Shown here one piece after another: positions 4,149 through 56,081 of a stretch of DNA of 64,000 nucleotides. The position numbers and the translations under genes are program-made. Within the stretch, counting starts at the first letter, position 1; the number at the start of each line of letters is the position of its first letter. This DNA is from Catellatospora sp. TT07R-123 (GTDB taxonomy: Bacteria; Actinomycetota; Actinomycetes; Mycobacteriales; Micromonosporaceae), in the NCBI RefSeq assembly GCF_018327705.1, contig NZ_BNEM01000001.1:2666001-2730000 (forward strand), in the 5' to 3' direction. The notes under the pieces were generated by a model. It made no database searches. It worked only from the letters and a program-made list of their open reading frames with translations, and was not told the origin of the DNA.

Positions 4149-4212
4149 TGATCCGAAATCGTGGACGCTGGGTGTTGCCATAGCAGCACCTGGCGTCCAC
4201 GATTCCGGATCA
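4149..4212 (+). repeat. Palindromic repeat family A, copy 1
   Basis: The outer arms 4149-4168 (TGATCCGAAATCGTGGACGC) and 4193-4212 pair with one mismatch. The inner arms continue the stem through several G.T pairs to a CATA loop. It lies between the TVP38 gene and the convergent DUF559 gene, and its last three bases (4210-4212) are the DUF559 stop codon. The same core (GTGGACGC...GCGTCCAC, with GCAGCACC on the right inner arm) recurs at 5255, 32351 and 45566. Confidence 0.9.
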
Positions 4213-5142
4213 CCCCCGCGACCACCCCGCGGCGCGCAACGCAGCACGCAGCGTTTCGAGCACTTCGTCCGGCTTGTTCCGCACGGCCCAGGCCGGGAAG
4301 CGCAGCACCCGCTCGCCCTGCACCCACAGCGCGTTCTGCCGCCGCATGTCCGCCCACCACGCGCGCACGTCCATGTGCTGAGCGCCGTCGACCTCGACCT
4401 GGACGCCGTAGCCGTCGAACAGGGCGTCCAGGTAGCGCTGCCTGCCGCCGCTGTCGCGGCGGCTGACCTGGAGCTTCGGCGTCGGCAGGCCGCCCCGGCG
4501 GCACAGCGCGACGAACTCCGCCTCCGGCAGCGACCCCGCGCCGCCCGCGCTGTCGTTGACGGCCTGGACGATCACGTCCCGGCGCACGATGTTCGGCATC
4601 CGGGCCAGCACGGCGCGGACCTCGGCCGGGTGCGTCAGGCGCTGCTGGAGCGTGGCCGCGATCAGCGTCTGCGCCTCGGCGTCGGAGCGGGCCCAGCGGG
4701 CGGCGTCGACCAGCGAGCGCGCGGGCATGGTGCACGGCGGGCTGCCCAGCTCGTGCACGTCGGCCGGATCGAGGCGGCGGGTGCGGTGCACGATCACGTC
4801 CATCGGGGTGTCGCGGTCGCGAGCGCCCGCGGGCAGCAGCAGGTGGATGCCGGGCACGTGGAAGCCGCGCAGGCCGTGCTGGGCGAGCGCGGTCCGGCCC
4901 GCGGTCACGGTGCCGGGCGGCCCGGCCAGGACCGCGATCCAGCGGCGCTGCTCGTCGTCGGCGGGCGTCGGCTGGAGCAGGTAGACGCCGCGCGCCGCGC
5001 GTACCCAGCGGCCGGAGGCGACACGGTGGCGGATGGCGGCGCTGGTGAAGTGCGCCAGCGCCTGGTCGCGGGTGAGCACATCGCGCTGGCGGAAGAGGAG
5101 GAAGTCGAGGTCGGCGGCGTCGTCGCGCGGTGGTGGTCGCAC
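4210..5142 (-). CDS. AbiEi-like N-terminus plus DUF559 (Vsr-like) C-terminus protein
   Basis: A 310-residue protein. The N-terminus (FLLFRQRDVLTRDQALAHFT then VASGRWVRAARGVYLL) resembles the winged-helix of AbiEi-type antitoxins. The C-terminus (residues 235-305) has the pattern of DUF559/Vsr-like PD-(D/E)xK folds: YLDALFDGYGVQVEVDG, an RR pair and ERVLRFPAW. Such proteins are abundant in actinobacteria, and their role is unproven. No AbiEii-type toxin gene is adjacent. The GTG start follows TAGGCT by 8 nt, so it may be leaderless. Inverted family A repeats flank it (4149-4212 and 5255-5316), suggesting it could have moved as a unit. Confidence 0.75.
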   Translation of the reverse strand: MRPPPRDDAADLDFLLFRQRDVLTRDQALAHFTSAAIRHRVASGRWVRAARGVYLLQPTPADDEQRRWIAVLAGPPGTVTAGRTALAQHGLRGFHVPGIHLLLPAGARDRDTPMDVIVHRTRRLDPADVHELGSPPCTMPARSLVDAARWARSDAEAQTLIAATLQQRLTHPAEVRAVLARMPNIVRRDVIVQAVNDSAGGAGSLPEAEFVALCRRGGLPTPKLQVSRRDSGGRQRYLDALFDGYGVQVEVDGAQHMDVRAWWADMRRQNALWVQGERVLRFPAWAVRNKPDEVLETLRAALRAAGWSRG

Positions 5143-5254
5143 GGTCGTCGAGCCTAGGGACGCGGTACGACAGCGATCGATGATCGCCGACCCGCGGCCT
5201 CCGGCCGACGCGGGCGGCCGCCGAAGTCGAGGCCGTGGGGTGGTGGCGGGGGAA

Positions 5255-5316
5255 GATCCGAAATCGTGGACGCCAGGTGCTGCTATAGCGACACTCAGCG
5301 TCCACGATTTCGGATC
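5255..5316 (-). repeat. Palindromic repeat family A, copy 2
   Basis: A 62-bp element whose outer 19-bp arms (GATCCGAAATCGTGGACGC and complement) pair perfectly, with loop TATA. The asymmetric inner arms show it is inverted relative to the copy at 4149. It lies just after the leuS stop and upstream of the DUF559 gene, so it may serve as the leuS terminator. Confidence 0.9.
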
Positions 5317-5329
5317 AAGCCGTGACCGG

Positions 5330-8143
5330 TCAGGCGACGATGCTGACCAGGCGGCCGGCTACGACGATGACCTTCTTCGGGTCCTTGCCGCCCAGCGCGT
5401 CGCTGACGGCCGACAGGGCCGCGGCGCGGACCTCGTCCTCGCTCGCGTCCGCGGCGACCTCGACGCGCCCGCGCACCTTGCCGTTGACCTGCACCGGGTA
5501 GGTCACCTGCGCGGCGGCCAGCAGTGCCGGGTCGGCGACCGGGAAGTCGGCGAAGGTCAGCGAGCCGTCGTGGCCCAGCTTGCGCCACAGCTCCTCGGCG
5601 ATGTGCGGGGCGACCGGGGCGACCATCAGCACCAGCGGCTCGGCGATCTCGCGCGGGGTGGCGCCGGCCTTGGTCACCGCGTTGGTCAGCTCGATCAGCT
5701 TCGCGATCGCGGTGTTGAAGCGCAGCGCCGCCATGTCCTCGCGGACCCCGGCGATGGTGCGGTGCAGCAGGCGGCGCAGCTCGTCGCCCGCCGGGGTGTC
5801 GACCACCACGACGTCGCCGGTCTGCTCGTCGACGATCGAACGCCAGACGCGCTGCAGGAACCGCTGGGCACCGATGACCGCGCGGGTGTCCCAGGGGCGG
5901 GACACCTCCAGCGGGCCCATCGACATCTCGTAGACGCGGAAGGTATCGGCGCCGTACCGCTCGCACATCTCGTCGGGCGTGACGACGTTCTTCAGCGACT
6001 TGCCCATCTTGCCGTACTCGCGGTCGACCTTCTCGCCGTTCCAGGTCCAGACGCCGGGCTGCTCCTCGGTGACCTCCTCGGCGGGCACGTACGTCTTGCG
6101 CTCGTCGGTGTAGGCGTACGCCTGGATGTAGCCCTGGTTGAACAGGCGGTGGTACGGCTCGAAGCTGCTGACGTGGCCCAGGTCGAACAGCACCTTGTGC
6201 CAGAACCGGGCGTACAGCAGGTGCAGCACGGCGTGCTCGACGCCGCCGACGTACAGGTCCACGCCGCCGGAGTCGCCCGGGTTGCGCGGCCCGACCCAGT
6301 AGGCCTCGTTCTGCGGGTCGACGAACGCCTTCTCGTTGGTCGGGTCCAGGTAGCGCAGCTGGTACCAGCACGAGCCGGCCCACTGCGGCATGGTGTTGGT
6401 CTCCCGGGTGTACTGCTTCGGCCCGTCGCCCAGGTCCAGCGTCACCTCGACCCAGTCGCCCTTGCGCGACAGCGGCGTCTCCGGCGAGGAGTTCGCGTCG
6501 TCGGCCGCGAAGGTCTTCGGCGAGAAGTCGTCGACCTCGGGCAGCTCGACGGGCAGCATCGACTCGGGCAGCGCGATCGGCTGGCCGTCCTGCGCGTACA
6601 CGATCGGGAAGGGCTCGCCCCAGTAGCGCTGGCGGCTGAACAGCCAGTCGCGCAGCCGGTACGTGATGGCGCCCTGGCCGCGGCCCTCGGACTCCAGCCA
6701 CTCGATGATCTTCGCCTTGGCCTCGGCGACGCCCAGGCCGTCCAGCATGCCGGAGTTGATCGCCGGGCCGTCGCCGGTGAACGCCTTGCCGTCGAAGCCC
6801 TCGGTCGGCTGCACGGTCCGGATGATCGGCAGCTCGAAGACCTCGGCGAACTCCCAGTCGCGCTCGTCCTGGCCGGGCACCGCCATGATCGCGCCGGTGC
6901 CGTAGCCGGCCAGCACGTAGTCGGCGATGAACACCGGGACCTTCGCCCCGTTGACCGGGTTGACCGCGAACGCGCCGGTGAAGACGCCGGTCTTGGTCTT
7001 GGCGTCGGCCTGGCGCTCCACGTCGGTCTTGCTCGCCGCGAACGCCCGGTAGGCGGCGACGGCCTGGGCCGGGGTGTCGTGCCCGCCGGTCCACACCGCG
7101 TGCGTGCCGTCCGGCCACGCCGCCGGGGCGATCGCGTCGACCAGCTCGTGCTCGGGCGCGACCACCATGTACGTGGCGCCGTAGACCGTGTCGGGCCGGG
7201 TGGTGAAGACCCGGACCTGCTGGTCGGAGCCGTCGACCTGGAACGAGATGTGGGCGCCGGTGGAGCGGCCGATCCAGTTGCGCTGCATCGCCTTGATGGC
7301 CTCGGGCCAGTCCAGCGTGTCCAGGTCGTCGATCAGGCGGTCGCCGTACGCGGTGATGCGCATCATCCACTGCTTCAGGCTGCGCTTGAAGACCGGGAAG
7401 TTGCCGCGCTCGCTGCGGCCGTCGGCGGTGACCTCTTCATTGGCCAGCACGGTGCCCAGGCCGGGGCACCAGTTGACCGGCGCCTCGCTGACGTACGCCA
7501 GGCGGTGGTCGTTGATGACCGCGCGGCGCTCGGCGGCGGACTTCGCGGCCCACGTCGGGTCCTCGGCGGCGAACTTCGCCTCCAGCTCGGCGATCGGGCG
7601 GGCGCGGCCGGCCTCGGCGTCGTACCAGGAGTTGAAGACCTGCAGGAAGATCCACTGGGTCCAGCGGTAGAAGTCCACGTCGGTGGTGGCGACCGAGCGG
7701 CGCGGGTCGTGGCCCAGGCCCAGCATGCGCAGCTGCTCGCGGTAGCGCGCGATGTTGCGCTCGGTGGTCACCCGCGGGTGGGTGCCGGTCTGCACCGCGT
7801 ACTGCTCGGCCGGCAGGCCGAAGGAGTCGAAGCCCATGGTGTGCAGCACGTTGAAGCCCGCCATGCGCTGGAAGCGGGCGAACACGTCGGTGCCGATGAA
7901 GCCCAGCGGGTGCCCCACGTGCAGGCCCGCGCCCGACGGGTACGGGAACATGTCCAGCACGAACTGCTTGGCGGCGCCGAAGCGGGGGTGCGCCGGGTCG
8001 GCCAGCGGGCCGGTCGGGTTGGGCGCGTGGAAGGTGCCGTGCTCGTCCCAGTAGTCCTGCCAGTGCCGCTCGATGTTGCCCGCCAGGGCGGCGGTGTAGC
8101 GGAACGCGGGAATGTCGGCCGAGGTCTCGGCTTGCTCACTCAT
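5330..8143 (-). CDS. leuS: Leucyl-tRNA synthetase
   Basis: A 937-residue class I aminoacyl-tRNA synthetase that charges tRNA-Leu. HIGH appears as HVGH at residues 75-78 within [20 protein letters not shown] appears as KMGKS near residue 712, and a CP1 editing domain lies between. The length fits actinobacterial LeuRS. The ATG at 8143 has GAGGAT 6 nt upstream. The 230 nt before the start hold a leader peptide with leucine codons, an intrinsic terminator and a second small frame, so regulation by attenuation is likely. A family A palindrome follows the stop. Confidence 0.97.
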
Positions 8144-8174
8144 GTCAAATCCTCAACGAATTCATTACGCGATC

Positions 8175-8231
8175 TCAGGTCATCGGGGTGTGCCGCCACC
8201 GCGCGGCCGTCCGGCTGGGGAGAGCGGACAT
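8175..8231 (-). CDS. Possible second small frame in the leuS leader
   Basis: An 18-codon frame beginning MSALPSRTAARWRHTP with a good CGGAGG ribosome site 6 nt upstream. It ends 31 nt before leuS. It has one leucine, so it is not an obvious sensor; it could couple ribosomes to the leuS start or be a chance frame. Confidence 0.3.
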   Translation of the reverse strand: MSALPSRTAARWRHTPMT

Positions 8232-8243
8232 GCTGTGCCTCCG

Positions 8244-8270
8244 TTTTATGTCCGCTTCGCGGACATAAAA
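8244..8270 (-). other. Second hairpin in the leuS leader
   Basis: A perfect 12-bp stem (TTTTATGTCCGC with its complement) with a 3-nt loop lies immediately after the attenuator. It overlaps the T-run, so the two structures may be mutually exclusive or act as tandem terminators. Confidence 0.55.
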
Positions 8271-8292
8271 AAGCCCCTCGCGCAGGAGGGGT
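8266..8292 (-). terminator. Intrinsic terminator (attenuator) in the leuS leader
   Basis: On the minus strand CCCCTC and GAGGGG pair around a 6-nt loop and are followed by GC and six T residues (8272-8267). A true U-tract is rare in this GC-rich window. It sits between the leader peptide and leuS. Confidence 0.75.
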
Positions 8293-8319
8293 CGCCGTGC
8301 TCACACGCGCTCTGTCGCG

Positions 8320-8358
8320 TCAGCACGGCCTGCTAAGGAGCGCCAGCTTCCGGGCCAT
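8320..8358 (-). CDS. Putative leuS leader peptide
   Basis: A 12-codon frame, MARKLALLSRPC, with three leucines in four codons (CTG GCG CTC CTT). It begins 6 nt after the TATCAT hexamer, so it would be leaderless. Its stop lies 28 nt before the terminator stem. Stalling at the leucine codons when charged tRNA-Leu is scarce would favour read-through into leuS. Confidence 0.55.
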   Translation of the reverse strand: MARKLALLSRPC

Positions 8359-8460
8359 GACCGCATGATACCCCGTACGCGCGCGGGACGGCATCTCGCA
8401 TACCGCCCATTGCGCGCACACCCACCGCGCGTAACACTGCGGTCACGACGGAACGTACTC

Positions 8461-8499
8461 GTCCGCTCGCGCGTCGCAGATGCGGCGCCGCGAGCGGAC
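8461..8499. repeat. Inverted repeat in the leuS-moxR divergent region
   Basis: GTCCGCTCGCG (8461-8471) pairs with CGCGAGCGGAC (8489-8499), and the inner bases nearly pair too, leaving an AGAT loop. It lies between the leuS promoter and moxR, and could be an operator or a structural hairpin. The rest of 8371-8582 shows nothing else I recognise. Confidence 0.45.
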
Positions 8500-13477: not shown

Positions 13478-13539
13478 TGCAGTTTCGGGGAAACTGGCCG
13501 AATTCCGGCCCGCTTTCCAGCACTTTCCCCGAAACTGCA
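13478..13539 (-). repeat. Palindromic repeat family C, copy 1
   Basis: A 62-bp element with perfect 16-bp ends (TGCAGTTTCGGGGAAA at 13478-13493 and its complement at 13524-13539). The inner part can also pair (GGCCG-AATTC-CGGCC). The second copy, 23212-23273, has the same length, identical ends and the opposite orientation. Its interior differs at many positions. Confidence 0.85.
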
Positions 13540-13562: not shown

Positions 13563-13614
13563 ACGACTACGGCGAAGGGCCGCCCCGTCCGGGGCGGCCC
13601 TTCGCCGTAGTCGT
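13563..13614. terminator. Bidirectional terminator hairpin
   Basis: Two perfect 25-nt arms (13563-13587 and 13590-13614) around a 2-nt centre lie between the convergent tgpA and DUF3040 genes. Short ACT/AGT edges could act as weak T-tracts either way. The perfect symmetry could also mark a further palindromic repeat family. Confidence 0.7.
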
Positions 13615-23025: not shown

Positions 23026-23097
23026 CTGAGTCGATCATGAATGCGCGGGGTTCGGGGAGTCCGGCACCCGCGTCGGGTGCGCACCCCGGGCCCCTCC

Positions 23098-23178
23098 CGC
23101 TTTTCATCGACGTTGGCCTATCACGTCGAGTTCGATCTCGCCCCAGTCGACGTAATAGGCCAGCGTCGATGAAAAGCG
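23098..23178. repeat. Palindromic repeat family B, copy 1
   Basis: Arms of 32 nt (23098-23129 and 23147-23178) pair with two mismatches. The core is ACGTTGGCCTAT and the loop contains GATC. It lies between imuB and dnaE2 and is followed 33 bp later by family C copy 2. Other B copies are at 28760, 36067 and 43694. Confidence 0.9.
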
Positions 23179-23211
23179 AGGCGCGTAGCGCCGGGCGCCG
23201 TGGTGGGTGCG

Positions 23212-28199: not shown

Positions 28200-28759
28200 G
28201 GCTGGTGCCCTGGACGCCGGACGACCTCGCCCGGCGCATGGACGACGTGCTGTCGGTGTTCGGCGAGGCGATGTCGTACCAGGCCGACGCCCTGGCGGTG
28301 CGGCGCGGCTACATCTCCGCCCACCTGCGGCGGCCGCAGTTCCGGGCCATCGCCGCGCTCAGCCTCCAGGGCCACCTGCTCGGCTTCGCCTACGGCTACC
28401 ACTCCGCACCCGGCCAGTGGTGGCACGACGTGGTCAGCTCCGTGCTCACCGACGCCCAGCGCACCCACTGGATGACCGACTGCTTCGAGGTCGTGGAGCT
28501 GCACGTACGGCCCAGCGCGCAGGGTCACGGCCTGGGCGAGGCCCAGCTGCGGGCACTGCTGTCGATGACCCGTGCCCGGACCACGCTGCTGTCCACCCCC
28601 GAGGCCGACGAGCGGGCGTCACGCGCGTGGCGGCTCTACCGGCGCACCGGCTTCAGCGACGTCTGCCGCCACCTGCTGTTCCCCGGCGACCCCCGCCCCT
28701 TCGCCATCCTCGGCAACACCCTCCCCCTGCCGACCCCGCCCAGCACCCCCACCCCGTGA
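28196..28759 (+). CDS. GNAT-family N-acetyltransferase
   Basis: A 187-residue acetyltransferase. The acetyl-CoA motif is VVELHVRPSAQGHGLGEAQL, near residues 100-119, and YRRTGFSDV is the usual C-terminal strand-helix. The acceptor is unknown; a GNAT gene (Rv2170) occupies the corresponding place in M. tuberculosis. The start overlaps the YbaK stop. A family B palindrome follows the stop codon directly. Confidence 0.85.
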   Translation: MRLVPWTPDDLARRMDDVLSVFGEAMSYQADALAVRRGYISAHLRRPQFRAIAALSLQGHLLGFAYGYHSAPGQWWHDVVSSVLTDAQRTHWMTDCFEVVELHVRPSAQGHGLGEAQLRALLSMTRARTTLLSTPEADERASRAWRLYRRTGFSDVCRHLLFPGDPRPFAILGNTLPLPTPPSTPTP

Positions 28760-28845
28760 CCCGTTTTACATAAACGTTGGCCTATCTCATCGACTCGGAC
28801 AAGATCGAAGTCGACGAGATAGGCCAACGTTTATGAAAGACGGGG
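28760..28845. repeat. Palindromic repeat family B, copy 2
   Basis: CATAAACGTTGGCCTATCTC and its complement form the core of a 26-bp stem (28769-28794 with 28810-28835). Looser outer CCCGTTTT/AAAGACGGG pairing extends to both edges. It lies between convergent genes, and family D copy 1 follows 25 bp later. Confidence 0.9.
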
Positions 28846-28869
28846 CAGGTGGGCGAGCGAGCGAGCGAC

Positions 28870-28936
28870 GGCCAAGTTGCCTGGCAATCGGGCGTAAACG
28901 GGTCCATGATTCGCCCGATTGCCCGGCAACTTGGCC
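28870..28936 (+). repeat. Palindromic repeat family D, copy 1
   Basis: Arms of 25 nt (28870-28894, 28912-28936) with one mismatch and a 17-nt loop. The inner 57-bp core (28875-28931), AGTTGCC...GGCAACT with TCGGGCG, has the same length as the copy at 55933-55989. It lies downstream of the convergent phosphatidyltransferase-like gene. Confidence 0.85.
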
Positions 28937-28965
28937 GATCGGCTGTGCGCAGGATCGGTGCCCGG

Positions 28966-31432: not shown

Positions 31433-31475
31433 GTCACCCGGCCTCCTTTGTGGACGGTGTGACATCTGTCAAGCA

Positions 31476-31513
31476 CAACTGTTCCGAACAATCAACACTG
31501 TTCGGAACAGTTG
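31476..31513. promoter_or_regulatory. Paired TGTTCSGAACA palindromes, candidate GntR operator
   Basis: Perfect 15-bp arms (CAACTGTTCCGAACA and its complement) flank 8 nt. Each arm itself holds the palindrome TGTTC[C/G]GAACA, with centres 19 bp apart. On the minus strand TTGACA lies just downstream, ahead of the 31432 start. A partial copy (CTGTTCCGAA) lies in the gntR promoter. Confidence 0.55.
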
Positions 31514-32257
31514 TCAGGCAGGGAAGGAGTACTCCAGCTCGTAGGCATCAGCGTCGAGAATCATTCGGGTGACCTCGACGCAACGCTCCCCCGAGTAGGC
31601 TGCCCGCGTCACCTCCAGTACACGGGCGCCATCAGCAGCCAGATCAAGCGCGACGACCTCGTCTGGTGTCGGGCTGCGGCCGATGATCCGCTCAGTGAAC
31701 CGGTCGGGCGCACAACCCTGCTCGGCGAGACGGCCGTAGGTGCCGCCCGGCCCGGTGTCGGTGTGCTCGATGCGCGTGCCGCGGGTCAGCTCCGTAGGCA
31801 GGTAGGACACGGCGAGCTGCACCACCCGCTCCTCGACCGCGAAACGCCGGGAGCGGGAGAGAACCGTGTCGCCGATGTCTACGCCCAGCGCACTCGCCGC
31901 GAATTCCGGAGCCGGCACGTCGCCGACGACGACATCGACCGTACGCGGTCGAGGACCGGTGTCATGGTCCTGGATCGAGGCGCCCGCACCCCACCGCGCC
32001 TGGGCCAGCCGACCAGGCGAGCTACGGATGATCCGTTCGAATCGACGCACGAACGTGCCCGCGCCCGGACGGGACATGACCAGGCCGTCGGCGCGGAGGA
32101 CGTCCAGGGCACGGGTGGCGATACCCACTGCGACGTCGTACTGCGCGGCTATCTCGCGCAGCGACGGCAGCCGGGCGCCTTCGGGCAATTCTCCGGACAG
32201 AATCCGTTGGCGGAGCTGATCGGCCACCCGCCGGTACGCCGCCTGCTCGCCCGCCAT
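31514..32257 (-). CDS. GntR/HutC-family transcriptional regulator
   Basis: A 247-residue regulator. The N-terminal winged helix is RRVADQLRQRILSGELPEG then LPSLREIAAQYDVAVGIATR (residues 9-50). The UTRA-type ligand domain (residues 85-245) has SRSRRFAVEERVVQLAVSYL. The ligand is unknown. The candidate operators are the paired TGTTCSGAACA sites after its stop and a half copy at its own promoter, which suggests autoregulation plus control of the following Cys-rich gene. Confidence 0.88.
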   Translation of the reverse strand: MAGEQAAYRRVADQLRQRILSGELPEGARLPSLREIAAQYDVAVGIATRALDVLRADGLVMSRPGAGTFVRRFERIIRSSPGRLAQARWGAGASIQDHDTGPRPRTVDVVVGDVPAPEFAASALGVDIGDTVLSRSRRFAVEERVVQLAVSYLPTELTRGTRIEHTDTGPGGTYGRLAEQGCAPDRFTERIIGRSPTPDEVVALDLAADGARVLEVTRAAYSGERCVEVTRMILDADAYELEYSFPA

Positions 32258-32299: not shown

Positions 32300-32350
32300 C
32301 GGCACCAAACCACTCGCAGTTCCCGCCGACCGCCGCCGGAGAAGCGCGAA

Positions 32351-32412
32351 GATCCGTTTTCGTGGACGCCTGGTGTCGCTATAGCAGCACCCAGCGTCCA
32401 CAAGAACGGATC
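32351..32412 (+). repeat. Palindromic repeat family A, copy 3
   Basis: 62 bp with the conserved GTGGACGC/GCGTCCAC core, GATC ends, TATA loop and the GCAGCACC right inner arm. In the outer stem AAAT of copies 1-2 is replaced by TTTT with a matching change in the other arm, so pairing is kept. The flank AAGCC after GGATC is shared with copy 2. It lies between gntR and the divergent HEAT-like gene. Confidence 0.9.
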
Positions 32413-32484
32413 AAGCCACTCCCACAAAGCGTGCGCGGCAAATTGGTGGTGGCGGAACGGGGCTGGCAGCCATCCTGGGCCGCG

Positions 32485-34984: not shown

Positions 34985-34994
34985 GTTCATGTTC

Positions 34995-36065
34995 ATGACC
35001 ATGCACCCGGTGGATCGCGCCGCCCTGCGCCCGCGGGTGGAGAAGGCGCTGGCGGTGTTCCTTGCCGAACGCCGTACGCATATGGCCGCCATCGACGACG
35101 GCCTGCTCCCCCTCGCCGACGCCGTCGAGTCGTTCATCCTCGGCGGCGGCAAGCGGCTGCGCCCCGCCTTCGCGTACTGGGGTTACCGGGGCGCGGGCGG
35201 GGACGACCGCGACGACGTCGTCACGGCGCTCGCCTCGCTGGAGCTGGTCCAGGCCAGCGCCCTGATGCACGACGACCTGATGGACGCCTCCGACACGCGC
35301 CGGGGCGAGCCGTCGGTGCACCGCCGCTTCGAGGCGCTGCACCGGCAGCGCAGCTGGCAGGGCGAGCCGGGCGGGTTCGGCGCCGCGGCGGCGTTGCTGC
35401 TCGGCGACCTGTGCCTGGTCTGGTCGGACGAGCTGCTGCACGGCAGCGGCCTGGACCCGGCCGTGGTCGCGCACGCCCGCCCCGTGTACGACCTGATGCG
35501 CACCGAGGTCATGGTCGGCCAGTATCTCGACGTGCTGACCCAGGCCAGCGCCGACACCTCGGTGAGCCGGGCCAGCAAGGTGGCGCGGTTCAAGTCCGCC
35601 AAGTACACGGTCGAGCACCCGCTGCTGTTCGGGGCGGCGCTGGCCGGGGCCCCGGCGGAGCTGAGCGAGGCGTACTCGGCGTTCGGGCTGCCGCTGGGCG
35701 AGGCGTTCCAGCTGCGTGACGACGTGCTCGGGGTGTTCGGCGACCCGGCCGCGACCGGCAAGCCCGCCGGGGACGACCTGCGCGAGGGCAAGCGGACGTA
35801 CCTGATCGCGAAGGCGTTCGAGGGGGCCGGGCCGGACGACCGGGCGGCGCTGGCGGCCGGGCTGGGGCGGCCGGACCTCGACGAGGCGGGCGTGGCCCGG
35901 CTGCGGCAGATCATCACCGACACGGGGGCGCTGGCGCAGACGGAGGCGTACATCCGGCAGCTGACGGACACGGCGCTGGCGGCGCTGGCGGCGGCACCGG
36001 TCGAGCCGGAGGCGGCCGAGGTGCTGCGCGCGCTGGCCGACGCGGCGGTCCGCCGCGCCACCTAG
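34995..36065 (+). CDS. idsA: Polyprenyl (geranylgeranyl-type) diphosphate synthase
   Basis: A 356-residue all-helical prenyltransferase. GGGKRLRP binds IPP. The first Asp-rich motif is LMHDDLMD, and the second is FQLRDDVLGVFGD. It elongates allylic diphosphates; the residues before the first motif include bulky ones, so chain length is uncertain. The start at 34995 follows TAAGTT by 7 nt, and an ATG at 34989 is an alternative. The place matches Rv2173 (idsA2). The lycopene cyclase genes 2.2 kb on hint at carotenoid precursor supply. Confidence 0.92.
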   Translation: MTMHPVDRAALRPRVEKALAVFLAERRTHMAAIDDGLLPLADAVESFILGGGKRLRPAFAYWGYRGAGGDDRDDVVTALASLELVQASALMHDDLMDASDTRRGEPSVHRRFEALHRQRSWQGEPGGFGAAAALLLGDLCLVWSDELLHGSGLDPAVVAHARPVYDLMRTEVMVGQYLDVLTQASADTSVSRASKVARFKSAKYTVEHPLLFGAALAGAPAELSEAYSAFGLPLGEAFQLRDDVLGVFGDPAATGKPAGDDLREGKRTYLIAKAFEGAGPDDRAALAAGLGRPDLDEAGVARLRQIITDTGALAQTEAYIRQLTDTALAALAAAPVEPEAAEVLRALADAAVRRAT

Positions 36066-36066
36066 C

Positions 36067-36131
36067 ATCGACACTGGCCCATCTGAAGCACGGATCTTGG
36101 AAAACAGTCCACTGGATAGGCCAGCGTCGAT
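36067..36131. repeat. Palindromic repeat family B, copy 3 (diverged)
   Basis: Arms ATCGACACTGGCCCATC (36067-36083) and GATAGGCCAGCGTCGAT (36115-36131) pair with two mismatches around a 31-nt unpaired centre that contains GATC. It lies between convergent idsA and the RNase gene. The most degenerate B copy. Confidence 0.8.
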
Positions 36132-36198
36132 CAAAACGGGTCGGCGCAAGCCGGTGGGCGCAAGCCTGGTGGGCCAAGCCGGGTCGGCGCAGGCCAGG

Positions 36199-43621: not shown

Positions 43622-43693
43622 CCGGACGGCGCCCACACCGGCCGCCCCGACCGAGTGCCGACCGACGCGCCACACACTCCCCACCCCCGCCCC

Positions 43694-43784
43694 CACCCCG
43701 TTTTTCATAGACGTTGGCCTATTACATCGACTGAATCGAGATCGAAGTCGATGTAATAGGCCAACGTCTATGAAAAACGGGGTG
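43694..43784. repeat. Palindromic repeat family B, copy 4 (perfect)
   Basis: Two perfectly complementary 39-nt arms (43694-43732 and 43746-43784) flank a 13-nt loop that contains GATC. It lies between convergent bfr and the threonine aldolase gene. A perfect 39-bp stem implies a recent origin or strong selection. It may also terminate transcription both ways. Confidence 0.93.
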
Positions 43785-43815
43785 GAGTCCGCCACAGCCG
43801 GGACGGGCGGGCGGG

Positions 43816-44847
<1,032 letters not shown>

Positions 44848-44945
44848 CCCTCGTTCCTACCGCATCGCCCCGGCCGCACGCTGGCCACCCCTGCTTCTCG
44901 CCGGGAGGACGGCATGCCTGGCGGACGATCGCTACGCTGCCGGGC

Positions 44946-45554
44946 ATGACCGAGCCGACCGCCCAGGTGGCGGCCCTCGCCCCCACCGCGCGAACCGGCT
45001 CCCGGCGCCGCATCGTGCTGGCGCTGTCCCTGGCCGCCCTCCTGCTGTCGGCGTTGACCGCGTGGCAGCTGACCGCCCGTAATTACACTCTGGCTGCGGG
45101 CGAGGCCGGCAGCGCTCCGCCGAGCGCGGTCGAACAGGTCCTCGGCGTCAGGAGCGAATACGTCATCCCGCTGGACGGCGGGTCGCACCAGTTCCGGATC
45201 CCGATCACGAATCCCGGACCGGCCCCGGTGACGTTGACGGAGGTGGGCTCGCGCTTCGAAGTCGCGCCGCCGATGTTCCCGGTCGAGCGGATGGACGTCG
45301 TCCGGTGGCACGACGGCTGCTGCGCCCCAGCCGACAAGGTCGCCTTCGGGCCGACGGTCATCCACCCGGACGAGACCGTGTTCGTCTACATCACCGTCCG
45401 GACCGCAGCCGTCTCCTCGGTCGGCGGCTGCCAGCGGCGGTGGTTCGCCAGCATCCTGGTGAAGTTCACGGTGCTGGGACTCCAGCGCGAGCAGACGCTT
45501 TCGCTGAAGCGCACCATCAGTTACCAGACGCCCGGAGCCGACTGCCGCTTCTGA
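44946..45554 (+). CDS. Membrane-anchored extracellular protein, paralogue 1
   Basis: A 202-residue protein with one N-terminal helix (about 23-42) and a beta-rich outer domain with four cysteines. The ending ([28 protein letters not shown]) is homologous to the next gene's. No named family is recognised. The ATG lies 7 nt after TACGCT, with the same promoter-to-start arrangement as paralogue 2. The pair is a tandem duplication separated by repeat A4. Confidence 0.75.
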
Positions 45555-45565
45555 CGGCCTGCGAA

Positions 45566-45627
45566 GATCCAGGATCGTGGACGCCCGGTGTCGCCAGAGC
45601 AGCACCTGGCGTCCACGGGACCAGATC
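45566..45627 (+). repeat. Palindromic repeat family A, copy 4
   Basis: 62 bp with the family core GTGGACGC/GCGTCCAC, GATC at both ends and GCAGCACC on the right inner arm; the loop is CAGA. The outer stem has several mismatches. It lies between the two paralogous genes, 30 bp before the second promoter. Confidence 0.85.
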
Positions 45628-45669
45628 ATGGGACAGCGGCCGGGGCAGTCCGCCACTACGCTGCCCGCC

Positions 45670-46281
45670 ATGACCGAGACGATCACCCCTGCCACGGCTG
45701 CCGCGGCTCCCGCCGCCCGACCCGGCGGCCGCCGCCGCGCCGCCCTGGCCTGGGCGCTGCTCGCCGTCGCGGTGCTGGCTCTGGGCGGCTGGCAGGCCGC
45801 CGCGCGCACCTACGCGCTGGAGCCGGGGTATTTCGGCCTGCGGGCGCCCGAAGCCGTGGAGCATGTCGCGGGCGGCATACATGAGTACCGCTATCCGCTG
45901 GTCCACGGGACGTCGCATCGGATCTCGGTCTCCATGCGCAACCCCGGCCCGCTGCCAGTGCGGGTGACCGGGTTCGGCGGTGACCCGCATGAGTGGCCGC
46001 AGTCGATGTTCCCCATAACCTCGATCGAGGTGAACCGCGACGCCGTCGGCGACCTGGCCTCGGGGCAGCCGTTCGCGCCGTTCACGCTCGCCCCGCAGCA
46101 GGCGGTGCTCGTACACCTCACCGTGCGGGTGGAGGACGTCGATGTGGTCGACGGGTGCTCGCGGACGTGGTGGGGAACCCTGCCGGTGCGCTACACGGTG
46201 CTCGGGGTCGACCGCGAGCAGCAGCTCGCGCTCGACCCCGTCATCGCCTTCCAGACACCCGGAGAGGACTGCCTGGACTAG
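45670..46281 (+). CDS. Membrane-anchored extracellular protein, paralogue 2
   Basis: A 203-residue paralogue of the preceding gene: an N-terminal helix (about 23-44), an outer beta-rich domain, and the matching end VRYTVLGVDREQQLALD then FQTPGEDC. TACGCT lies 7 nt before the ATG, and both genes begin ATGACCGAG. The stop TAG is part of the CTAG duplicated by the IS element that follows. The function is unknown; the domain could bind a partner at the surface. Confidence 0.75.
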   Translation: MTETITPATAAAAPAARPGGRRRAALAWALLAVAVLALGGWQAAARTYALEPGYFGLRAPEAVEHVAGGIHEYRYPLVHGTSHRISVSMRNPGPLPVRVTGFGGDPHEWPQSMFPITSIEVNRDAVGDLASGQPFAPFTLAPQQAVLVHLTVRVEDVDVVDGCSRTWWGTLPVRYTVLGVDREQQLALDPVIAFQTPGEDCLD

Positions 46282-47262
46282 ATGACTGATTCCTAATGGT
46301 CGTACGCGGTCAGTGATCGTTTCTCGGGTGCGTCGGTCAGCCAGTTGTGCCAGATCACGGCTGCGAGGGCGGCCAGGCGTTGTGCGATGCGGGCGTGCAC
46401 CCCTGCGGGTGTGCGCCCGCCGTGCTGTTCGAGGCTGAGCTGACCTTTCAGGGTGTCGAAGATCGATTCGATGCGTTGACGGACCGGGGCCAGGTTGCCG
46501 TGGCGTCGGGCTTCGTCGCGGCGGTCGGGGCGTATGAACACGATTTTCAGGTCGCGTGTCTGTTGCTCGAACGCGCGGCCGGCGAAGCCCTTGTCACCGA
46601 TGAGCACGACTCCGGCGGGTAGGAGGCCGTGGTCGCGGGCGTGTTCGAGCAGTTCGGCGGCGACTTCTCGTTCGCCCAGGCTCGGGGTGGCCAGGCACCA
46701 GGTGACCGGTGTGCCGTCCAAGGCGGTGACGAGGTAGAGCTTCAGGCCCCAGATCCAGCGGGAGTGCGATCTGCAGTAGCCGTACCCGGCCCATCCGGCC
46801 AGGGCCGAGCCGATCGCGGTCTGGCGGGACATCCCGCACGGGATCACGGTGGCGTCGATGAGGCGGATGCCGTCGTGGCCGGCCGGGGTCTGGGCGGCCA
46901 GGCGTGTGATGACGGTGGTGATCAGCGGCGCGGCCGCGGTGACGCGTTTGTGGTAGCCGGCCTGTTTGGGCAGGTACGGGAACATGCGGCCGAGCCTGCC
47001 GTAGCAGAACCGCAGCCAGTGGTGCTGCGACGGGAACCCGAGCAGGACCTGCGCCACGGCCAGGCAGACCAGCTCGGCGTCGGTCAGCTTCTTCGGGCGT
47101 CCGGGACGGCGCCGGGACGCGGTGATGACATGGTCATCGACGAACACGTACAGTGCCGTCAGAAGGGTATCGAGGTCTGTCTTCACACACTGACATCGAT
47201 ACCCTTCCCCATACCCGCGTCAAGACCACGGACCAAACCAACCCTGATTAGGAATCAATCAT
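46282..47262 (-). mobile_element. IS982-family-like insertion sequence with CTAG duplication
   Basis: A 981-bp element with 16-bp terminal inverted repeats, ATGACTGATTCCTAAT at the left and its complement at the right (one mismatch). The flanking CTAG (46278-46281 and 47263-47266) is a 4-bp target duplication. It carries one intact transposase gene and appears recent. It separates the tails of two convergent genes whose stop codons are both within CTAG. Confidence 0.9.
46293..47186 (-). CDS. IS982-family-like DDE transposase
   Basis: A 297-residue transposase. It begins MKTDLDTLLTALYVFVDDHV. RPKKLTDAELVCLAVAQVLLG follows, and the DDE residues probably lie in RLIDATVIPCG (D), LIGDKGFAG (D) and RQRIESIFDTLKGQL (E). 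The sequence pattern SRSHSRWIWGLKLYLVT and the tail IWHNWLTDAPEKRSLTAYDH fit IS982-type actinobacterial elements. The TAG stop overlaps the left terminal repeat. The frame is intact. Confidence 0.9.
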   Translation of the reverse strand: MKTDLDTLLTALYVFVDDHVITASRRRPGRPKKLTDAELVCLAVAQVLLGFPSQHHWLRFCYGRLGRMFPYLPKQAGYHKRVTAAAPLITTVITRLAAQTPAGHDGIRLIDATVIPCGMSRQTAIGSALAGWAGYGYCRSHSRWIWGLKLYLVTALDGTPVTWCLATPSLGEREVAAELLEHARDHGLLPAGVVLIGDKGFAGRAFEQQTRDLKIVFIRPDRRDEARRHGNLAPVRQRIESIFDTLKGQLSLEQHGGRTPAGVHARIAQRLAALAAVIWHNWLTDAPEKRSLTAYDH

Positions 47263-48768
<1,506 letters not shown>

Positions 48769-50663: not shown

Positions 50664-50695
50664 CGCCACGCCTCCCGCACTCCCGCCTCGACTAG

Positions 50696-50755
50696 TTGAT
50701 CATGAAGTTATGGGGGTCGACACACCGTCGAACACGACCATAAGTTCATGATCAA
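50696..50755. repeat. Palindromic repeat family E, single copy
   Basis: Arms TTGATCATGAAGTTATGG (50696-50713) and 50738-50755 pair with one mismatch. The inner GTCGAC/GTCGAAC pairs loosely, for a 60-bp element. It lies between pfp and proC. Only one copy is in the window. Confidence 0.75.
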
Positions 50756-50767
50756 CGGGAAGAGGGG

Positions 50768-51834: not shown

Positions 51835-52096
51835 TGTTCTCGTCCTCCCGAATACGGGTAGTCACATTGCCTAGCCCCGGGATGACGAGTGAACACGGCT
51901 ACGCTGCCGGCCGGGGCGGGCCGCAAATGGGCACTGTACTGCGACCACCCGGATAGGGCCAGCACGCCCCGCCCACGTCCGAATGTCAGGCGGATGTCGG
52001 GGCGGCGAATTCCGTACCAGGAGGGCGCAACAGCCTCGCAATGACGAGGTTACTCGCCGTTGACAGGGCGTGGTGGCGCGGCTCACCGTGCCGCGG

Positions 52097-52600
52097 TCAC
52101 CGCTTGCGGGCCGTCATCGCCTGCCAGCGGGCCAGGTTGTGCCGCGCGTCGACCAGCGCGTCGTGACGCGCCGTGGCCGCCTCGGGCAGGCCCGGCCGGC
52201 CGGTCTCGTCCCACAGCTGCCGCAGCTCCTTGGTGAAGCGCGGGATCACCCGGGGCAGGGCCACCATCGGGCCCCACAGCTGCGCCAGGCAGACGTGGTC
52301 GTACGCGCCGTACCAGGCCCACAGCTCCAGGGTCTCGTTCGGGCGGCCCTTGACCGGCTCGCTGAGGAACTCCAGCAGGTCGGTGCGGATGCGCTCGCGC
52401 GAGCGCCACGCCTTGTCCGCCGGGGACGGCAGCAGGTTGAGCACGTTGTCGCGCACCCACGGGATCGCCTTGGCCGGGTCGAACTCGGTCGAGACCGCGT
52501 AGAACTCCCGGCCGTACTCGTCGACCACGCCGATCGAGACCAGGTCGATCGTGGTCCCGTCCTCGATGAACTCGCAGTCGTAGAAGTAGCGATACGCCAT
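52097..52600 (-). CDS. 3'-5' exoribonuclease AS family protein (Rv2179c-like)
   Basis: A 167-residue DEDD-type nuclease. The first motif is YDCEFIEDG (D8, E10), a middle Asp lies in GAYDHVCLAQLWG, and the last motif is RHDALVDARHNLARW. The length and motifs match Rv2179c, reported as a 3' exoribonuclease that prefers poly(A). It may trim RNA 3' ends. The ATG at 52600 gives MAYRYFYDCEF. GGAGGG is about 13 nt upstream. It lies divergently to DUF1028 with a 47-bp gap. Confidence 0.93.
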   Translation of the reverse strand: MAYRYFYDCEFIEDGTTIDLVSIGVVDEYGREFYAVSTEFDPAKAIPWVRDNVLNLLPSPADKAWRSRERIRTDLLEFLSEPVKGRPNETLELWAWYGAYDHVCLAQLWGPMVALPRVIPRFTKELRQLWDETGRPGLPEAATARHDALVDARHNLARWQAMTARKR

Positions 52601-52647
52601 GTGAACCGGTCTTCCCTCCGCGCCGACGCCGCGCCTACCCTGACGCG

Positions 52648-53475
52648 ATGACGTTCTCGATCGTCGCGCGTTCGGCTGACGGCACCGCACACGGGGTCGC
52701 CGTGGCGAGCAAATTCCTGGCCGTCGGGGCGGCCGTGCCCGCCGCCGAGGCGGCCGTCGGGGCACTGGCGACGCAGTCCTACGCCAACCTCGCCTACCGC
52801 CCGCAGGGCCTGGCCCTGCTGCGCACGGGCACGGCGGCGGCCGACGTCGTGGCCGGGCTCACCGCCGCCGATCCGGGCCGGGCGCAACGCCAGCTCGGCG
52901 TCGTGGGTACGGGCGGTGACGGCGCGGGCTGGACCGGCCCCGGCTGCCACGGCTGGGCCGGCGGCGCCTACGGCGACGGCTTCGCGATCCAGGGCAACAT
53001 CCTGACCGGACCCGAGGTCGTCGAGGCGATGCGGCTGGCGTGGCTGGCCGGCGACCCGGCCGCTCCCCTGGCCCGGCGGCTGCTCGCGGCGCTGCGCGCC
53101 GGGGACGCGGCAGGCGGCGACAAGCGCGGGCGGCAGAGTGCGGCCCTGCTGGTGGTCAGCCCCGGCCAGGGGTACGGCGGCACCGGCGACACCGTCGTCG
53201 ACCTGCGCGTGGACGACCACCCCGCCCCGTGCGCCGAACTGGCCCGCCTACTCGGCATCCACTCCCTCCTGTTCGACCGCCCCGACCCGGCCACCCTGCT
53301 CGACCTCGACGGCGACCTGGCCACCGAGATCCGCACCCTGCTCACGGTCCGCGGCCACACCCACTCCGATCTCGACACCGCCCTGGCCTCCTGGGCCGGC
53401 GTGGAGAACCTCGAAGAACGCCTGGTCCCCGGCCGCATCGACCCCCTGGTCCTCACCCACCTCCGCACAACCTGA
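52648..53475 (+). CDS. DUF1028 family protein
   Basis: A 275-residue protein. The typical start MTFSIVARSADGTAHGVAVASKF and GAVPAAEAAVGALATQSYAN match the DUF1028 (Ntn-hydrolase-like) family; the C-terminus has a peptidoglycan-binding-like tail of unclear role. The function is not established. TACCCT lies 6 nt before the ATG, so the transcript is likely leaderless. It overlaps no gene; the following 630 bp are repeat-rich. Confidence 0.88.
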   Translation: MTFSIVARSADGTAHGVAVASKFLAVGAAVPAAEAAVGALATQSYANLAYRPQGLALLRTGTAAADVVAGLTAADPGRAQRQLGVVGTGGDGAGWTGPGCHGWAGGAYGDGFAIQGNILTGPEVVEAMRLAWLAGDPAAPLARRLLAALRAGDAAGGDKRGRQSAALLVVSPGQGYGGTGDTVVDLRVDDHPAPCAELARLLGIHSLLFDRPDPATLLDLDGDLATEIRTLLTVRGHTHSDLDTALASWAGVENLEERLVPGRIDPLVLTHLRTT

Positions 53476-53577
53476 CCCCACCCCACCCCACCCCGGGCTG
53501 CGCCTGCGCCATCGCCCGCGCCCGCGCCATCGCCCGCGCCTGCGCCTTCGCGCTCTGCGGCTGCGCTCTGCGGCTGC

Positions 53578-53625
53578 GGCGGCAGCGGCAGCGGCGGCAG
53601 CGGCGGCAGCGGCAGCGGCAGCGGC
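53578..53625 (+). repeat. GGCAGC/GGCGGCAGC microsatellite
   Basis: About eight units of GGCAGC and GGCGGC, directly before the first GAAGATC element. Prone to slippage. Confidence 0.85.
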
Positions 53626-53692
53626 GAAGATCGTCGTCTGCGGTCGAAAGCTCGCATGACAGCACCGTTTCTGACCGCAGACGGTGATCTTC
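53626..53692. repeat. Inverted pair around GAAGATC (F1)
   Basis: GAAGATCGTCGTCTGCGGTC (53626-53645) and GACCGCAGACGGTGATCTTC (53673-53692) pair with two mismatches around 27 nt. A looser pair follows at 53708-53726 with 53801-53819. Confidence 0.8.
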
Positions 53693-53856
53693 ACCGTCAG
53701 CGTGGCCAAGATCGCGCTCTGCGGTCAGGGACGGCCTGCCGCCACCGCGCCGCCCGAGTCAACCCCGACGTCCAGCTGCCGACCCAACAGCCCACGCTCC
53801 GACCGCGGACGCCGATCTTCAAGCGAGATCGTGGTTTCCGGTCACGAAGTGGGCCG

Positions 53857-54085
53857 CGAGCGAAGTTCTCGACCGCGAACAGCGATCTTCAGCGCCACAG
53901 CCGCAGCTACGGCCAGCGCGCGGCCCGTGAGCTAAGTTCCCGACCACGAACAGCGATCTTCAGCGCAACAGCCACAGCTACAGCCGCAGTTGCGGCCAGC
54001 CCACGGGACGCGAGCGAAGTCCTCGACCGCGAGCAGTGATCTTCAGCGCCACAGCCGCAGCCATGGCCGCAGTTGCGGTCGGCTG
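53857..54085 (+). repeat. Three degenerate direct repeats with GATCTTCAGCGC
   Basis: Units beginning near 53857, 53928 and 54011 share GAGCxAAGTYCYCGACC, then CAGYGATCTTCAGCGC and ACAGCCRCAGC. Spacing is 71 and 83 bp. They diverge by small indels, so they look old or under relaxed constraint. Confidence 0.75.
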
Positions 54086-54107
54086 CGGCGGCGCGGGGGA
54101 CGCAAGA

Positions 54108-54992
54108 TCAGCCGAGCAGGGCGTCGCGTGCGTCGTGCAGGCCCCGGCGGTTGTCGGACTGGTCGGCCACGCCGGTGAGGTCGCCGGTGGCGATGCGGGC
54201 GGCGAACCAGTCGGCCTGCACCGCCCAGCGGAAGCGCAGCAGCACGTCCAGGCTGGCCTCGATCTCGGCGCGGGGCACCACCCCGGTCGCGGCGTACGCC
54301 GACAGCAGCTCCCGGGCCCGGTCCGAGCCTCCCGCGTACATGACCGCCGAGGCGACGTCGTACATGAGCGGCCCGGCCCCCGCCGAGCCCCAGTCGATGA
54401 CACCGATGCGGCCGGTGCCGGGGTCGAGCAGGAACGCCCCGTGGCACGGGTCCCCGTGCAGCGCCCCGTACGTGAGCCGGTCGGTGACCTGGAGTTTCGT
54501 CAGCGTGTTGACGGCGGCGGCGACCGCGGGACGCACCCAGTCCTCGACGTCCAGGTGCGGCGCGTCGGGGCGTACCCAGTGCCAGGCCGGCAGGCCCGGG
54601 TGGCGGAACTCGCGCAGCACCCGGTGCACGGCGCCGAGCCGGTCGCCCCACCACTGCTGGTCGAGGGGATCGTCGGCCTCCAGTTCCCGGCCGGGCACGT
54701 GGTGCAGCAGCGCCAGCACGTGGTCGCCGACGGGCACGGTCAGCGCGCCGTCGGCGGTACGCAGCGGGGCGCCCGCGTCGACGCCGTGGCGCGACAGGTG
54801 CTCGGCGGCGGACAGACCAGCTTCGAATTGCGCTTTCTGCGCAGGTCGGACGGCCTTTGCGACGTAGTGGAGGCCACCGGCACTGACCGATACGGTGGTC
54901 GACGTCATCCCACCGGACAGAGGAGTGAAGCCGTCCGGCTGAAGATGCCATGCCGTCCGAAGTGTCGTGCGGAACGTATCGTCAGCCAGCAC
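54108..54992 (-). CDS. Aminoglycoside-phosphotransferase-like kinase
   Basis: A 294-residue protein of the APH/choline kinase fold. The Brenner motif reads HGDPCHGA, so the metal-binding Asn is replaced by Ala; the following IDWGSAGAGP keeps its Asp. LHYVAKAVRP carries the ATP lysine. It may phosphorylate a small molecule weakly or have lost activity. The GTG at 54992 follows GATAAT by 6 nt, the best -10 of the window; a longer in-frame start is unlikely. Confidence 0.8.
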   Translation of the reverse strand: MLADDTFRTTLRTAWHLQPDGFTPLSGGMTSTTVSVSAGGLHYVAKAVRPAQKAQFEAGLSAAEHLSRHGVDAGAPLRTADGALTVPVGDHVLALLHHVPGRELEADDPLDQQWWGDRLGAVHRVLREFRHPGLPAWHWVRPDAPHLDVEDWVRPAVAAAVNTLTKLQVTDRLTYGALHGDPCHGAFLLDPGTGRIGVIDWGSAGAGPLMYDVASAVMYAGGSDRARELLSAYAATGVVPRAEIEASLDVLLRFRWAVQADWFAARIATGDLTGVADQSDNRRGLHDARDALLG

Positions 54993-55004
54993 GGGCGGAT
55001 TATC
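54990..55004 (-). promoter_or_regulatory. Leaderless promoter of the phosphotransferase gene
   Basis: On the minus strand TGATAAT is followed by CCGCCC and the GTG start at 54992. Confidence 0.55.
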
Positions 55005-55181
55005 ACATGGCCAGCCCAGCCGCCATATCCATCGGCGGTGTCCGCGATCCGGCAGATCCGCCGGTGGTCGGTCCACGGAGTGGACTCAACGGCTCACTCA
55101 AGCGATGATCTGTCCAGGGTTACGCCGACCGCTCACGACCGTGGACTGGTCGGTCGGGGTGGGAGACGGAAGGGGTAGGCG

Positions 55182-55874
55182 GTGGAGATTCGCATTCCGG
55201 ATGCCGCGGATGCGCTGACCGGAGTCGAGATGTTCGCTGGCCTGGAGCCGGAGGTGCGCCAGCGGGTGATCGCCGCCGCGGTGCCGCGCACCTTCCGCAA
55301 GGGCCAGCTGCTGTTCGTGGAGAACGACCCCGGCGAGACCCTGATCGTGCTCAAGCGCGGTTCGGTAGCGGTGTTCCGCACCTCCCCGACCGGCGAGCGC
55401 GCCGTGCTGTCGGTGCTGCGCCCGCCGGACACGCTGGGCGAGGTGTCGCTTCTGGACGGATCGGCCCGCTCGGCCTCGGCCGAGGCGCTGGAGGACTGCA
55501 CGGCGCTGGCGCTGTCGCGCGGGGCGTTCATGGAACTGGTGCACTCGAACCCGCGCATCCTCGACGCGGTCATGCGCTCGCTGGGCGCGCTGATCCGGCG
55601 GCTGACCGAGCAGAACGCCGACCACGTCTTCCTGGACCTGCCGGGCCGGGTGGCCAAGACGCTGGTGCGGCTGGCGGGCGAGAGCCAGGCTCCGATGATC
55701 ACGATCGAGCTGAACCAGAGCCAGCTGGCCGAGATGGCGGGCGGTTCGCGGCAGAGCGTGAATCAGGCCATCGGCTCGTTCGCCAGCCGGGGCTGGCTGC
55801 GTACGGAGGGGCGCCGCATCGTGGTGATGGACGTCCCCGCCCTGCGCCGCCGCGCCGGCATGCAGGACCGCTAG
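55182..55874 (+). CDS. Crp/Fnr-family transcriptional regulator
   Basis: A 230-residue regulator. The cyclic-nucleotide fold (20-125) has DTLGEVSLLDGSARSASAEA, close to the cAMP phosphate-binding cassette. The dimer helix leads to a winged helix with LNQSQLAEMAGGSRQSVNQ (residues 175-193). The ligand is probably a cyclic nucleotide; a cyclase gene lies 2.5 kb downstream. The GTG has GGAAGGGG upstream. A strong hairpin follows the stop. Confidence 0.88.
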   Translation: MEIRIPDAADALTGVEMFAGLEPEVRQRVIAAAVPRTFRKGQLLFVENDPGETLIVLKRGSVAVFRTSPTGERAVLSVLRPPDTLGEVSLLDGSARSASAEALEDCTALALSRGAFMELVHSNPRILDAVMRSLGALIRRLTEQNADHVFLDLPGRVAKTLVRLAGESQAPMITIELNQSQLAEMAGGSRQSVNQAIGSFASRGWLRTEGRRIVVMDVPALRRRAGMQDR

Positions 55875-55880
55875 CCCTCA

Positions 55881-55912
55881 CGCGGCCGCCCGCCGGGGGG
55901 CGAGCGGCCGCG
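55881..55912 (+). terminator. Terminator hairpin after the Crp gene
   Basis: 14-bp arms CGCGGCCGCCCGCC and GGCGAGCGGCCGCG with one mismatch and a GGGG loop, 7 bp after the stop. Confidence 0.65.
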
Positions 55913-55932
55913 CACCGGCTTCAAGATCGCGC

Positions 55933-55989
55933 AGTTGCCGGGCAGTCGGGCGTATCAGTGCACCTGATACGCCCGACTGCCCGGCAACT
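55933..55989. repeat. Palindromic repeat family D, copy 2
   Basis: Perfect 26-nt arms (AGTTGCCGGGCAGTCGGGCG and onward, 55933-55958 with 55964-55989) and a 5-nt loop, 57 bp in total as in copy 1. It lies between the Crp terminator and the GH5 promoter. Confidence 0.9.
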
Positions 55990-56081
55990 TTGCTTCACGA
56001 CTGGCCGCGCCGGGGCGGCGCTGGCCCGGCGGGGCGGGCGGAGCGGGGCAGGCGGAGCGGGGCAGGGTGGAACTGAACCGC

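Follow-up and report, generated by a model that had tools for sequence, protein, structure and literature searches.

The genome of Catellatospora sp. TT07R-123 (9.17 Mb in two contigs; G000 below) carries at least seven kinds of short self-complementary dispersed repeat, here called families A, B (with subfamily B'), C, D, F, G and H. The stretch under study, hereafter the window, comprises 64,000 nucleotides (G000:C1:2666001-2730000), in which a sequence-only reading had described five palindrome families with 13 elements. We consider it probable that these are non-autonomous palindromic repeats that work like REPINs, the doublets of repetitive extragenic palindromic (REP) sequences that form hairpins (Bertels and Rainey 2011, PMC3116915), that they are copied by a trans-acting enzyme other than a Y1 transposase of the REP-associated tyrosine transposase (RAYT) type, and that they are retained downstream of genes. 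The elements are REPIN-like in anatomy (B, C and D) and in behaviour, and they are not canonical terminators; membership in a REP-RAYT system is improbable, and status as miniature inverted-repeat transposable elements (MITEs) is possible at best.

Families were built by clustering followed by iterated nucleotide models, eight in all (A, B, B', C, D, F, G and H), and were surveyed in detail across 850 kb of the genome that include the window, with genes defined by our own simple gene caller. In the window the models recognized 15 family elements, including one of F (at 50697-50754, within the palindrome listed below) and two of G, which the earlier reading had missed. The A (four), B (four, one degenerate), C (two) and D (two) copies that it had listed are all present, and both inverted-repeat and direct-repeat searches recovered these four families at the same positions; its fifth family, E, did not hold. 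The palindromes of the window are:

4149-4213: A1, family A palindrome between convergent genes
5254-5317: A2, family A; A1 and A2 flank a 310-amino-acid AbiEi_4/DUF559 gene
13478-13539: C1, family C, 62 bp, two inverted arms
13563-13614: E, hairpin of terminator-like form (perfect 25-bp stem, loop of 2); relatives have a counterpart at this site; not dispersed
23083-23181: B1, family B, about 30 bp from C2
23212-23273: C2, family C
28747-28852: B2, family B; the G009 slot is 66 bp without a known element
28869-28937: D1, family D; G005 has a C element in the same slot
32350-32413: A3, family A; borders stretches present or absent in G009 and G005
36063-36136: B3, subfamily B' (degenerate); gives a TAG stop to the gene at 34989-36065
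43684-43788: B4, family B with perfect arms of 40 bp; G005 and G009 have B' in this slot
45565-45628: A4, family A
50686-50765: F, with a related palindrome in the same slot in five of five relatives, as read from their sequences
53626-53691: first G copy
53826-53890, strand opposite to the first G copy: second G copy
55933-55989: D2, family D, 26-bp perfect arms

A palindrome scan of the 850 kb detected 138 strong palindromes, versus none in one Markov-1 control of equal length, and the models assigned 145 elements to families (G 32, D 29, C 22, B 19, H 15, F 14, B' 8 and A 6). Family H is absent from the window and present elsewhere in the genome. The further copies that the sequence-only reading had expected were found genome-wide: at least 177 for C (176 forward and 177 reverse matches; control 0), 147 for D (reversed-pattern control 0), 37 for H (18+19, all at separate places; control 0), 40 scored B sites out of 109 candidates, and 23 A sites among 24 listed at no more than one mismatch. 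Only low-mismatch matches were counted for A, because at up to three mismatches its 29+34 matches are not much above the 25+21 of the reversed-pattern control. The direct genome-wide minimum for A, B, C, D and H together is about 420. Even extrapolation of 145 per 850 kb would give ~1,560 copies of all families. This is probably an overestimate, since the direct counts of A, D and H fall two- to four-fold short of their share in it; the genome-wide patterns for D and H are also stricter than the corresponding models.

These numbers make it scarcely credible that the families are ordinary intrinsic terminators that resemble one another by chance. E does fit such a description, and a terminator scan of 20 kb gave 4 sites versus 2.7 expected, two of them at the edge of B1 and inside B3. 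However, chance resemblance does not account for 147 D and at least 177 C copies against a control of zero, and downstream T runs are almost absent (five or more T in 12 nt in only 4 of 165 tandem elements). No Rfam model matched the window above its gathering score. E itself was rejected as a fifth dispersed family because it is terminator-like and a hairpin occupies the same site in all five relatives compared (G009, G005, G001, G008 and G003), similar in sequence in four and different in G008; its cluster has just one further member, likewise a GC-rich hairpin that resembles a terminator.

The anatomy of B, C and D is that of inverted doublets. In the 850 kb, doublets outnumber singlet arms 27:2 in D, 17:5 in C and 21:7 in B, and G is intermediate (28:25); short or one-sided arm patterns contribute to the low doublet counts of G, and likewise of A, F and H. 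Arms are conserved and centres diverged in C and D, as had been noted from the window. Core length is narrowly distributed: 34 of 38 D cores measure 55 bp (model without fixed length; regular expression window 51-57), and among 28 C matches of at least 59 bp, 15 have 62 bp, 11 have 61 and two have 60. Paired with each other, the two inverted arms can form a single long hairpin when the DNA is single-stranded or in RNA, and such a single-strand form may be the intermediate in copying. Mean folding energies, assessed with mono-nucleotide shuffles, are -30 to -53 kcal/mol in all families except F (-18). Judged from sequence, either arm of C and H can also make its own small hairpin. Covariation was examined in A, C and D, with the A alignment oriented by its centre by the analyst and with shuffles that ignore relatedness; pairing in the long stem is kept in A and D, where the double-sided changed cells (14 and 20, respectively) were reached by none of 500 shuffles. 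The elements also have the terminal inverted repeats and non-coding centre that characterize MITEs. GTAG occurs anywhere in the element in 33 of 56 H copies, 12 of 73 G copies and 0-4 copies each in families A to F; CGTC is constant in A (17 of 17 copies), where it lies inside the paired arm, and is common in B, B' and F.

Identical copies were found in unrelated surroundings. Two D copies 241 kb apart match at 59 of 59 bp with unrelated flanks. Among 14 H copies picked from the lowest-mismatch matches of two species (one, L251, is the second H copy in its fetched stretch and not the listed one), 13 fall into five groups of identical copies, and no flanks are shared. The ends of H are sharp: A precedes AGGAAGG in 14 of 14 copies, and CCCTTCT is followed by T, A, A and C in 13, 11, 14 and 14 of 14, respectively. 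We infer that the families have been actively transposing.

Comparison with related species revealed turnover in the same intergenic slots (B and B' counted as one family). Of 126 slots, 48 were comparable in G005, with the same family in 30, no known element in 13 and another family in 5; the corresponding numbers were 14, 2 and 1 of 17 comparable slots in G009, and 8, 26 and 9 of 43 in G003. The remaining slots were missing from the stretch compared, too far apart or inverted. Copies are thus not confined to orthologous positions, and the intergenic placement, high copy number and presence/absence differences agree with the REP- or MITE-like behaviour proposed from the window. Among 33 same-family elements in slots shared with G005, 13 are more alike than any unrelated copy. 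In the window, B copies adjoin C or D copies, as had been remarked, with both pairings seen. In the joint slot of B2 and D1, G009 lacks any known element, G005 carries one of family C, and G001 and G008 have other palindromes. The B3 slot spans 9-29 bp in G005, G001, G008 and G003, where B3 is absent, and contains a B' element in G009. That one element supplies a stop codon was borne out at B3, where TAG at 36063 stands opposite CTGA in the five relatives (relatives' reading frame unverified). Separately, an F element is inverted in place in a colinear slot (G000:C1:2438153 and G005:C46:24351, 96% identity when flipped).

The abundance of the families differs by lineage. A search for C in 11 genus genomes gave at least 177 copies in the present one, at least 239 and at least 145 in its two sister species, and 0+0 to 23+22 forward and reverse matches in the other eight, where one site can match both strands. 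For D, a search of two Catellatospora genomes yielded 147 and 46 copies, and 39 genomes of other genera had none. H yields at least 78+80 and at least 86+86 matches in two other Catellatospora and is found in 5 of 58 genomes of other genera, with up to 40+38 matches. Among the H matches listed, those of G009 are of the GGGCCCC type and those of the present genome and G002 almost all of the GGGCACC type, which may be a sign of species-specific amplification; since G005 has a mixture of both, this is not a strict rule. Outside the genus, A gave 1-4 matches in 4 of 30 genomes and B one weak match in 1 of 30, and a scan of the GTDB collection for the A core returned 11 stretches, all in two Catellatospora genomes. 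B4 and an H copy had no match in a plasmid search, and an H copy had none in a phage search; these were the only families searched there.

Elements are enriched between convergent genes and rare between divergent ones. The midpoint lies outside called genes for 143 of the 145 elements, and one of the two exceptions is one half of an element that an insertion has interrupted. By position, 67 elements in the 850 kb are convergent, 59 tandem and 17 divergent. An element is present at 50 of the 131 junctions between convergent genes, at 53 of the 463 tandem junctions and at 16 of the 130 divergent ones. A pooled set of six stretches (2.4 Mb, 342 elements, 329 placeable) gave 142 convergent, 157 tandem and 30 divergent elements, compared with 12.8%, 51.3% and 35.9% of element-free intergenic DNA. 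The intergenic location and the placement between convergent genes noted from the window extend well beyond it. In the six stretches the gap between an element and the adjacent gene has a median of 42 bp on the stop side and 99 bp on the start side.

This location invites a different explanation, namely that the palindromes are functional 3'-end elements, bidirectional terminators or RNA-stabilizing hairpins under selection, with gene conversion among sites homogenizing old slots within a species. The convergent bias and closeness to stops, the strong predicted folding, the double-changed cells in A and D and the occurrence of B facing B' in the same slot are all consistent with it. In tandem slots the sense strand has 216 G-U versus 172 A-C mismatches (binomial p 0.03), and in convergent slots, with 155 G-U versus 174 A-C, there is no G-U excess. 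Orientation in tandem slots is biased in F (24 to 10), and in convergent slots the fixed arm is nearer its stop in 13 of 14 F, 15 of 20 C and 22 of 32 H elements (p 0.002, 0.04 and 0.05). However, the G-U excess is slight, seven of eight models have no significant orientation bias in tandem slots, and T runs are nearly absent downstream. Moreover, 81 of 131 convergent junctions carry no element, and 13 of 48 sister slots have no known element. Taken together, these data leave selected 3'-end function rather unlikely as the primary explanation. The suggestion that the elements are processed RNAs likewise found only weak hints, in the tandem G-U excess and the orientation and arm-to-stop biases. 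In our preferred account of REPIN-like repeats copied in trans, a secondary role in 3'-end processing or in the insulation of convergent genes is possible.

The search for a mobilizer bears on two further explanations. The Y1_Tnp model PF01797 had no match in the present genome, G009, G005, G002 or G007, so that a RAYT gene, which the earlier reading had suggested looking for, was not found; the same search matched in Escherichia coli, which has a RAYT. Y1_Tnp is present in 6 of the 11 genus genomes. These Y1 transposases, the REPIN-like doublets of B, C and D and GTAG in H would fit a strict REP-RAYT system whose RAYT was recently lost in the clade. Nevertheless, none of the three C-rich species (the present one and its two sisters) has a Y1_Tnp match although the search works in E. 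coli. In addition, 4 of 9 Y1 matches were examined, and none of the eight models was found in their 3.4-kb loci (within ~1.5 kb), and GTAG is rare in A to F and in G. We regard recent RAYT loss as improbable.

Alternatively, the families could be MITEs, deletion derivatives of DDE insertion sequences (ISs), each sharing its terminal inverted repeats with a different IS. The inverted repeats at the element ends, the variable centres and the presence of DDE-type genes in the genome would fit this origin. Eleven same-family pairs lie 0.35-3.5 kb apart in the 850 kb, and the enclosed genes of seven were scanned. Two pairs enclose genes that we take to be IS30-like from their HTH_38 and rve matches (G000:C1:2362545-2363785, L153, and G000:C1:2398411-2399618, L154). 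These insertions lie near the centre of one C and one B palindrome, which they split, so that at these sites the palindrome is the target and not the source. The two IS30-like elements differ (48% protein identity), and tblastn found no further related copy in 2.4 Mb. The other five scanned pairs enclose no transposase, a result that covers the intervals of 7 of the 11 pairs in the 850 kb. Because the 14 H copies also lack a constant target duplication, we hold a MITE origin to be possible at best and do not favour it.

Some A elements border variable DNA. The A1-A2 interval does not align in G005, G008 and G003, where a different sequence of 764-784 bp stands in its place and is open over 210-238 codons, and in G001 the AbiEi_4/DUF559 gene is inverted between two A-like elements. 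A3 and A4 also lie at borders of stretches that vary between species. The variable stretch at window 44880-47263 contains A4, two related 200-amino-acid genes (41% identical) and a DDE_Tnp_1 gene (46293-47186). A gene-cassette system for A was considered and is not claimed, because no gene family recurs beside A sites (12 loci of 3 kb and six sites in the 850 kb); the exceptions are one 35%-identical pair at two sites and the two adjacent 41%-identical genes at A4.

Closely spaced G pairs and triplets occur elsewhere in the 850 kb (for example at 2278465, 2278583 and 2278717), and in the window three direct repeats of 83 nt (53823-54059) overlap a G element. A single operator-like palindrome at window 31475-31514, ACAACTGTTCCGAAC...GTTCGGAACAGTTGT, belongs to no family found.

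Several observations weigh against copying in trans as we propose it. No target-site duplication was detected: the best hypothesis holds in 1 of 14 H copies, and shuffled pairs average 1.79. Nine pairs of occupied and empty sites (~90% identity) gave no clean common junctions for A, C, D and H, and the element was often accompanied by extra sequence. No mobilizer was found, with no Y1_Tnp match in the present genome and a transposase scan covering 7 of the 11 pair intervals. Single-arm counts lend no doublet support to A (3:15), F (1:19) and H (5:9). The number of double-changed pairs was reached by 61 of 500 shuffles in A and 127 of 500 in D, and in C double-changed cells are not in excess, their number being reached by 485 of 500 shuffles. 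Finally, for 20 of the 33 same-slot elements shared with G005 the likeness does not exceed that of the best-matching unrelated copy, and several slots have B in one species and B' in another, which could reflect in-place conversion and not new insertion. Since 6 of the 33 also align best when flipped, re-insertion at favoured slots or in-place conversion has to be considered besides gain and loss.

With these points included, copying in trans by an enzyme other than a Y1/RAYT-type transposase remains the account that we prefer. Such an enzyme would copy the repeats to new places, and insertions would survive where they are least harmful or somewhat useful, just downstream of stop codons and above all between convergent genes, so that their retention may be nearly neutral. 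With survival at gene 3' ends, the families that occupy the same slots would then turn over and differ from species to species. A more speculative extension, which we offer tentatively, is that one hairpin-recognizing non-Y1 enzyme of Catellatospora mobilizes several sequence-unrelated families by their shape, the families rising and falling in the same slots as a RAYT-independent counterpart of REPINs.

No description of these families was found in the open-access texts searched; six arm strings used as text queries led to one unrelated paper, and PMC3610266 had no bearing on them. With REPINs (PMC3116915) they share extragenic inverted doublets, conserved arms, a variable spacer, one predicted hairpin, signs of spread within the genome and, for B, C and D, the rarity of singlets; they differ in having no Y1_Tnp match, GTAG only in part of H, several unrelated families and a high-GC actinobacterial host. 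Like the GTAG and CGTC REP families (PMC3733652), they are short, high-copy palindromes with dimers and a REP-supplied TAG stop, and CGTC REPs are said to have no dedicated transposase; unlike those REPs, whole elements here are ~50-100 bp with long arms, and the CGTC of A is inside the arm and not an end tag. The word 'Actinobacteria' does not occur in the text of that source. The earlier statement that no described actinobacterial family matches stands for the open-access texts, yet the RepRanger catalogue, which predicts REPs in many phyla, includes three other Actinomycetota genomes (PMC12306157). Unlike the families described here, that catalogue is a broad structural prediction, and its available text shows no Micromonosporaceae, no dispersed family of these sequences and no mention of RAYT. 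Prokaryotic MITEs (PMC10969869) are similarly small, non-autonomous, intergenic and bounded by inverted repeats, and differ from the present elements in that H lacks a target duplication and no parent IS was found in the DNA scanned. ISs inside palindromes also recall REPs as IS targets, for which IS3, IS110, IS4, IS256 and IS5 have been named (Tobes and Pareja 2006, PMC1525189); the IS30-like insertions here fall outside these five families.

REP-like repeats with a proposed mobilizer are best known alongside RAYT transposases. Catellatospora has at least seven palindrome families, and one of these is abundant in a clade of three species that gave no Y1 transposase, which makes the genus a good place to ask what else can move such hairpins. 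It also suits the questions of whether gene ends simply shelter such elements or keep them by selection and how palindromes are homogenized within a genome, and the slots provide dense markers of genome change between close species.

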